A stretch of DNA of 27,990 bases from a virus: the IMG/VR virus record IMGVR_UViG_3300011115_000735, positions 1 through 27,990 of that record; one strand, written 5' to 3'. How positions within the stretch are numbered: the first letter of the stretch is position 1; every line of letters starts with the position of its first letter. This document shows, piece by piece, positions 21,704 through 23,509 of the stretch. The translations under genes were made by a program, and so were the position numbers. The notes below the pieces were generated by a model. That model ran no database searches, was not told the origin of the DNA, and saw nothing but the letters and a program-made list of their open reading frames with translations.

Positions 21704-21711
21704 TATCTTTG
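21704..21711 (+). promoter_or_regulatory. -7 element for the methyltransferase operon
   Basis: TATCTTTG matches TAnnTTTG exactly and ends only 4 bases before the ATG at 21716, so the message would be nearly leaderless. No clear TTTG lies 19-21 bases upstream; that part is a run of A and T. Confidence 0.55.
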
Positions 21712-21715
21712 ACAA

Positions 21716-22582
21716 ATGAAACATGGTAGTTTATTTAGCGGAATAGGTGGATTTGATTTAGCAGCAGAATGGATGGGATGGGAAAACATCTTTCATTGTG
21801 AATGGAATCCATTTGGTCAAAAAGTATTAAAACATCACTTTCCTAATTCAATCAGTTATAATGATATTACTAAAACAGACTTTACTATTCACCGAAGAAC
21901 AATCGATATTCTTACAGGCGGATTCCCTTGTCAACCCTACTCAACTGCGGGAAAGCGAAAAGGTAAAAAAGATGAGCGCCATTTGTGGCCAGAAATGTTG
22001 CGAGCAATTAGAGAAATTCAGCCACGTTTCGTTGTGGGTGAAAACGTTCTCGGCCTTGTTAATTGGGGGGGGGGATTGGTATTCCACGAAGTGCAAACTG
22101 ACTTGGAAACTGCGGGGTACGAAGTATGGCCGTATGTACTGCCATCTTGTGGCGTTAACGCACCGCACAGAAGAGATAGGGTTTGGTTTGTTGCCTACCG
22201 TAGCAATGGATTCAACGGGAGCAACGGCAAATATGAAGTCAACGCAAGTGAAAGAAGGATCAATGCACTCGGTGACATTGAGCAGATGGGCGAATATGCT
22301 ACCGACACCAAGAACATCGGACGAAAGAATGCACTGGAGAACGGAAAATTGGAAGGGGGACGATTTAGGTTCGGAGATAAACCACCTACTTGGGACTCGT
22401 TCCCATCTCAATCCCCTATTTGTGGGGGAGATGATGGGCTTCCCAAAGAACTGGACAACATTACCTTTTCAAAATGGCGAAATGAATCAATAAAAGCATA
22501 TGGTAATGCTATTGTTCCACAAGTGGCTTATCAAATATTCAAAGCAATAGAGGAATATGGAAAACAGAGAAATGGTTTATGA
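21716..22582 (+). CDS. C5 cytosine DNA methyltransferase
   Basis: This is a 288-aa protein with the motif order of C5 methyltransferases: motif I FSGIGGFDLA (7-16, binding S-adenosylmethionine), motif IV GGFPCQPYS (68-76, catalytic C72), motif VI GENVLGL (108-114), motif VIII RRDRVWF (152-158), and motif IX/X-like FSKWRNESIKAYGNAIVPQVA (251-271). It is likely to methylate phage DNA to avoid host restriction. A run of ten G codes for W-G-G-G at about residues 117-120, between motifs VI and VIII. From about 21900 to 22450 G+C rises to nearly half, against about a third elsewhere. A second frame is open through the same DNA. It is the first gene of the plus-strand operon. Confidence 0.92.
   Translation: MKHGSLFSGIGGFDLAAEWMGWENIFHCEWNPFGQKVLKHHFPNSISYNDITKTDFTIHRRTIDILTGGFPCQPYSTAGKRKGKKDERHLWPEMLRAIREIQPRFVVGENVLGLVNWGGGLVFHEVQTDLETAGYEVWPYVLPSCGVNAPHRRDRVWFVAYRSNGFNGSNGKYEVNASERRINALGDIEQMGEYATDTKNIGRKNALENGKLEGGRFRFGDKPPTWDSFPSQSPICGGDDGLPKELDNITFSKWRNESIKAYGNAIVPQVAYQIFKAIEEYGKQRNGL
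21861..22493 (+). CDS. Overlapping second reading frame inside the methyltransferase gene
   Basis: This 210-codon frame is shifted by +1 base from the methyltransferase and ends just where the methyltransferase's last motif begins. It does not read as noise: residues 41-110 (CGQKCCEQLEKF; WVKTFSALLIGGGDWYSTKC; KLTWKLRGTKYGRMYCHL), LLPTVAMDSTGA, MLPTPRTSD and LNPLFVGEMMGFPKNWT are the kind of segments I recall from phage C5 methylases and companion proteins. In single-frame phage methylases a similar LPTP...LNP--VE-MMGFP--WT stretch precedes the last motif. It could be made from its own start, or fused to the methyltransferase N-terminus if the G tract loses one G. The high local G+C also keeps a minus-strand frame open, so chance openness is possible. 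Confidence 0.5.
   Translation: MILLKQTLLFTEEQSIFLQADSLVNPTQLRESEKVKKMSAICGQKCCEQLEKFSHVSLWVKTFSALLIGGGDWYSTKCKLTWKLRGTKYGRMYCHLVALTHRTEEIGFGLLPTVAMDSTGATANMKSTQVKEGSMHSVTLSRWANMLPTPRTSDERMHWRTENWKGDDLGSEINHLLGTRSHLNPLFVGEMMGFPKNWTTLPFQNGEMNQ
22065..22074 (+). repeat. Homopolymer G10 tract in the methyltransferase gene
   Basis: Ten consecutive G, by far the longest G run noticed in this AT-rich window. It is read as TGG GGG GGG GGA in the methyltransferase frame. Loss of one G would join the upstream methyltransferase frame to the second frame; other changes would break motif VIII and beyond. Such tracts are typical of phase-variable genes. Confidence 0.95.
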
Positions 22583-23283: not shown

Positions 23284-23291
23284 TATCTTTG
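23284..23291 (+). promoter_or_regulatory. -7 element for the downstream recombination genes
   Basis: TATCTTTG matches TAnnTTTG and lies 20 bases before the ATG at 23312. The expected -33 position falls inside the A/T palindromic repeats and has no TTG. It could give an internal transcript covering the exonuclease and following genes. Confidence 0.5.
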
Positions 23292-23311: not shown

Positions 23312-23509
23312 ATGGCAAGACAATCATCTCCCGATTCAGTATCATCAAGAGTTGCTGAAATCGAAGTAAACCAAACGCTAACTTTTGATAATCCATATAC
23401 TTCAGTAATGGTTATGGTTTCTTTGTTAAAAAAGAAAAAAGATCATGCTGAAAAGATTTTTAAAATAAAATATGTTGATGGAAAAACATTTGTTAGCAGA
23501 ATAAAATAA
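23312..23509 (+). CDS. Small protein, 65 aa, unknown
   Basis: The protein starts MARQSSPDSVSSRVAEIEVN and contains DNPYTSVMVMVSLLKKKKDHA and a C-terminal FKIKYVDGKTFVSRIK. A Ser-rich start is followed by a basic helix and two beta-type strands. I do not recognise a family. It is the first gene after the internal promoter-like site and 4 bases from the next gene. Small basic proteins in this position are common in phage recombination clusters. Confidence 0.7.
   Translation: MARQSSPDSVSSRVAEIEVNQTLTFDNPYTSVMVMVSLLKKKKDHAEKIFKIKYVDGKTFVSRIK

Follow-up and report, generated by a model that had tools for sequence, protein, structure and literature searches.

The DNA analysed here as a whole (the window), 27,990 nucleotides from the virus record IMGVR_UViG_3300011115_000735 of IMG/VR, carries a cytosine-5 DNA methyltransferase gene (alpha), inside which a second gene (beta) is encoded in the +1 frame, and the overlap of the two contains a homopolymer of ten G. 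Dual coding of alpha and beta is established. As to the tract, the best explanation, to which we assign a probability of about 0.58, is a contingency switch in the overlap, where one slip would disable both putative subunits of the enzyme.

Alpha (288 aa, 21,716..22,582, plus strand) has the motifs that define cytosine-5 methyltransferases (PF00145) in the proper order. Motif I (SGIGGF, 21,737..21,754), motif IV with the catalytic Cys of PCQ (GGFPCQPYS, 21,917..21,943) and motif VI with its ENV (GENV, 22,037..22,048) are invariant in the alignment of homologues; motif VIII (HRRDRVW, 22,166..22,186) and motif X (KAYGNAIVPQVA, 22,493..22,528), the latter beginning at the end of beta, were assigned by motif reading together with this alignment. 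The protein matches PF00145 (2.8e-46) and TIGR00675, as well as M.HhaI, both by sequence (1.2e-21) and by its AlphaFold model (Foldseek E 1.3e-14). Residues 166–246 of the model have pLDDT below 50, as would fit a stretch in which beta is the product under constraint.

Beta (210 aa, 21,861..22,493, plus strand) lies entirely within alpha, and its frame is open upstream of the tract as well. The conserved core of the protein consists of WYST.C.LTWKLK, LPT/LPTP elements and LNPxFVxEMMGFPxxWT; the segment LNPLFVGEMMGFPKNWT (22,407..22,457), found also in the +1 open reading frames of distant phages, resembles motif IX by eye, while profile searches against Pfam and PDB gave no useful match for beta, this segment included. 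All 63 aligned beta members match phrog_1008, annotated as 'DNA methyltransferase', which appears to be the family of the nested inner gene. The AlphaFold model of beta alone is poor (pLDDT 48). The start at ATG 21,861 is an inferred one: this ATG is present in 69% of the non-redundant homologues, and a minority (for example, L004, L037, L048 and L053) have Lys (AAG or AAA) in its place, so that beta must start elsewhere in them. Openness of the frame is maintained from roughly codon 53 of alpha onwards, and strong constraint at the amino-acid level sets in only from about codon 105; the N-terminal part of beta may be loosely constrained. Stops in the beta frame within the overlap were found in L067 and L070 (near codon 143) and in L046 (near codon 199); in these three, beta must have a later start, be split or have been lost.

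The evidence for dual coding comes from the homologues of the pair. Each of the 80 best IMG/VR homologues has a match to both frames. For several of the close homologues, conservation in the middle part is higher in the second frame (70–80%) than in the first (53–61%). In a set of 113 homologous genes, stops interrupt the second frame within the overlap only in rare exceptions, whereas the third frame contains 15–36 stops per gene. To obtain an expectation, synonymous codons of alpha were redrawn from its non-overlapping parts in 77 non-redundant genes. The beta frame is open over alpha codons 53–256 in 74 of these 77 genes, against 0 expected, and over codons 49–256 it has 8 stops in total, against about 1235 in the simulation. 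The deficit runs through every stretch of the overlap (observed against expected, 5 and 172 stops at codons 49–80, 0 and 152 at 81–104, 0 and 204 at 105–120, 1 and 214 at 121–162, 2 and 493 at 163–256), whereas control stretches outside beta had 148 stops against 163 expected and 178 against 146. Synonymous diversity of alpha amounts to 0.9–1.0 of the expected value both outside the overlap and across much of codons 61–100, falls to 0.38–0.76 at codons 111–162 (0.38 just before the tract and 0.5–0.75 through motif VIII) and to 0.37 at codons 163–258, with a minimum of 0.19 at codons 231–245, and returns to 0.95–0.98 after the end of beta. In the middle region, the most variable codon position shifts from the third position of alpha to the first one, that is, to the third position of beta.

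Motif IX-like text in another frame between motifs VIII and X made us consider a pseudogene or misassembly first, with two deletion-like changes of frame; this was rejected, as all homologues examined share the arrangement. Beta as an extension reached by a frameshift was rejected as well, being kept in homologues that have no tract and open far upstream of it. The preliminary description of this locus, made from the sequence alone, had suggested that the second frame might be reached by just such a frameshift; instead, this frame holds a nested gene that is conserved in its own right.

Taken together, alpha and beta are two overlapping proteins which probably form a single phage cytosine-5 methyltransferase as its two subunits. 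In this enzyme, alpha would supply motif X along with the motifs for SAM binding and catalysis, and beta the remaining recognition or motif IX-like part. The frame of beta is nested inside alpha, and the beta subunit of M.EcoHK31I is reportedly encoded in an alternative frame inside its alpha as well; M.EcoHK31I requires both of its polypeptides to methylate the site YGGCCR. It is described as two polypeptides, with motifs I–VIII and X in the large one and motif IX in the small one, and its recognition domain is placed in the large subunit (PMC3404938, citing Lee et al. 1995). Compared with this description, alpha has the motif content of the large subunit (I–VIII and X), and beta may correspond to the small one through its motif IX-like segment, a resemblance seen by eye and without a profile match. 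Unlike M.EcoHK31I, the window pair is phage-borne, has no recognised restriction enzyme among its scanned neighbours and harbors the G tract in its overlap. A split of the M.AquI type, in which the motifs of a cytosine-5 methyltransferase are likewise divided between two polypeptides but the small subunit contains both IX and X (PMC3404938), does not fit the window pair, the motif X of which is in alpha, after the stop codon of beta.

The nested pair is spread widely among phages. A +1 open reading frame with an MGFPxxW-type ending is nested in the same way in the Bacteroides phages BS-TP4 and BKO1-TP3, a Porphyromonas phage, Lactobacillus phage Lc-Nu, Paenibacillus phage Jacopo, Synechococcus phage S-H1 and a Sutcliffiella genome. 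The Paenibacillus larvae phages Jacopo and Redbud_51 share with the window the nesting, the +1 frame and the MGFP segment in the inner gene, and their proteins are far diverged from those of the window (about 28–35% identity); in the Jacopo protein, no Gly tract was seen at the corresponding place. Their annotations record the nesting: gp56/gp57 in Jacopo, gp57 being the inner gene, and 'g50 internal gene' in Redbud_51. In several public phage records (L082, L087, L161, L162, L163 and L165) the inner gene is unannotated or hypothetical. The end of a phage-type alpha/beta pair was also found on a contig binned as Candidatus Heimdallarchaeota (L088:1-381), possibly a misbinned phage fragment. 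In the literature collection searched, there was no description of nested phage methyltransferases. Thus a widespread phage methyltransferase consists of two overlapping genes, conserved from phages of Bacteroides to those of Bacillota and cyanobacteria.

The tract occupies positions 22,065..22,074 of the plus strand, within the dual-coded overlap. The preliminary description had reported ten consecutive G at this place, between motifs VI and VIII of the methyltransferase; direct counting and the motif assignment (GENV for VI, RRDRVW for VIII) bear out both. It is the only run of at least six G or C in the window, the GC content of which is 32.2%, and the first-order composition of the window predicts about 0.0004 G10 runs per strand. 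Alpha reads the region as AAT TGG GGG GGG GGA TTG (N-W-G-G-G-L), and beta reads the tract as GGG-GGG-GGG-GAT. Loss of one G connects the catalytic N-terminus of alpha with the second open frame for 138 codons, up to a stop at 22,491, and gain of one G ends the alpha reading after 8 codons; the frame arithmetic of the preliminary description, which had foreseen the fusion as well as the departure from the methyltransferase frame upon a gain, was thus correct. Since every base of the tract region is used by two proteins, dual coding also accounts for the difficulty of changing it.

Most homologues lack the tract: a G run of at least ten was found at the site in 4 of the 80 best ones. There is consequently no conserved recoding site, and the tract lies outside the core mechanism of the family; a slippery site conserved across the family, by which programmed frameshifting is recognized, was not found. 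An unbiased scan for the tract site, allowing a variable gap and drawing all its alleles from metagenome contigs, retrieved 58 methyltransferase genes with G9–G12, of which 42 are in frame, 13 at -1, two at -2 and one at +1. Among the 51 unique alleles, 12 are shifted out of frame at the site (9 at -1 and 3 at +1 or the equivalent -2), whereas about 90 homologues that lack the homopolymer are all in frame there. The latter served as controls; retrieved in the same way, they carry AAC, AAT, TCA or a Gly run with interruptions at the site. A change of frame between the flanking halves was observed in 11 of 49 tract alleles and in 1 of 91 controls (Fisher p = 4e-5), and what is left of alpha and of beta in the out-of-frame contigs reads without a stop up to the contig end. 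On a tree built from the first 345 bases, alleles with the tract cluster (9 changes), and those out of frame occur one by one among in-frame relatives (9 tips, 9 changes). In-frame tracts (G10–G12) always encode three Gly, versions with two or four being absent from the scan. GGG-GGG is used at Gly118-119 in 39 of the 59 unique alleles with three Gly, whereas GGG accounts for 6% of Gly codons outside the overlap; the beta residues at the tract vary in alleles without it, so there is no obvious demand of beta for GGG-GGG.

As for the window gene itself, the tract is absent from its nearest relatives, with identities of up to 90%, and the 38 contigs that share its flanking bases exactly all stay in frame and lack the homopolymer; the tract of the window is therefore a private gain. 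Of the hallmarks of poly-G contingency loci, a long homopolymer in a coding frame is present in the window, and length polymorphism in an otherwise intact gene was found in relatives only. The proposal of phase variation made in the preliminary description stands in part: tract alleles do go out of frame in relatives, but a single slip disables two overlapping genes, as follows from the conservation of the second frame in tract-less homologues. Retention of the Gly codons without a homopolymer, which the same description had named as evidence against a switch, is also partly observed, as the G run is interrupted in 20 of the 59 unique three-Gly alleles and the nearest relatives of the window have none.

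We consider slippage-driven switching in the tract-bearing phages more likely than not from these allele comparisons, and switching in the phage of the window itself plausible by extension from its relatives. The contest is chiefly with a passive tract in a nested two-subunit methyltransferase, having arisen by substitution and drift, whose out-of-frame alleles are sequencing or assembly errors; we regard this as less likely but quite possible. Runs of ten G are prone to miscounting, and a deletion-biased error would likewise yield mostly -1 alleles, as indeed are 9 of the 12 unique ones. The provenance of every allele from metagenome contigs, the tract-less nearest relatives of the window and the failure of the search for contigs with identical flanks differing in tract length only, which found no such pair, are in line with a passive tract too. 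Against it, seven pairs of contigs identical over about 0.85–1.05 kb agree on the tract length, four of them being out of frame, although the reads of a pair are possibly shared; furthermore, the use of GGG-GGG is far above what codon usage would give, and the tract persists in its clade. In our reading, slippage in vivo rather than assembly probably underlies the differences in tract length.

The two other explanations assign the second frame a different role. Programmed ribosomal or transcriptional slippage at the tract, with a fusion of the N-terminal part of alpha and the C-terminal part of beta as a second product, could make use of the link that the -1 shift creates between alpha codon 117 and the open 138-codon stretch of beta, and -1 is the commonest out-of-frame class. 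Nevertheless, we find it very unlikely: nearly all of the best 80 homologues keep beta without a long G run, so beta must be made by other means than slippage, the openness of the beta frame begins well upstream of the tract, and the fusion would lack motifs VIII and X. Ordinary phase variation of a single-gene methyltransferase with an accidental second frame, which was the picture of the preliminary description, would agree with the polymorphism of tract length, but we see it as hardly tenable, being contradicted by the second frame open in 74 of 77 genes against 0 expected and by the suppressed synonymous change in alpha.

Under the contingency switch that we favor, both frames continue through the tract at G10, and slippage by one G during replication would throw alpha out of frame and divert the frame of beta too. 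At -1, alpha would run into the C-terminal part of beta and be left without motifs VIII and X, and at +1 it would soon terminate as described above, so that a single slip would reversibly switch off both subunits, and the phage population would then be a mixture of methylating and non-methylating members. If the tract does switch, it would be a bet-hedging device for phage DNA methylation in the face of defences that cut either unmethylated or methylated DNA. Tentatively, we suppose that this phage family uses a dual-coded contingency switch to produce mixed methylated and unmethylated progeny against hosts restricting either state.

Hypermutable poly-G tracts have reportedly been found in Campylobacter phages (Sorensen et al. 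2021, Cell Rep 35:109214, cited in PMC10877375), where they are said to provide phenotypic diversity and evasion of bacterial resistance. Like the relatives of the window, these phages have poly-G tracts of variable length within their genes; to our knowledge, neither a methyltransferase nor a dual-coded overlap figures in that study. The bacterial type III phasevarions resemble the window locus in having a site of homopolymer slippage inside a methyltransferase frame, and differ from it in that they are host genes, belong to another methyltransferase type and switch one protein instead of two overlapping ones. Phase variation of DNA methyltransferases by poly-G or poly-C is cited for them in PMC3711429.

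The element TATCTTTG occurs at 21,704–21,711 and 23,284–23,291, just upstream of the methyltransferase and of the open reading frame at 23,312, respectively; it resembles the -7 promoter element of Bacteroidota, and the window contains no more copies of it than expected by chance. Downstream of the methyltransferase, there are NinG-like and exonuclease genes, and the minus strand of the window at 123–20,643 encodes a tailed-phage virion structural protein, portal, large terminase and primase/helicase.
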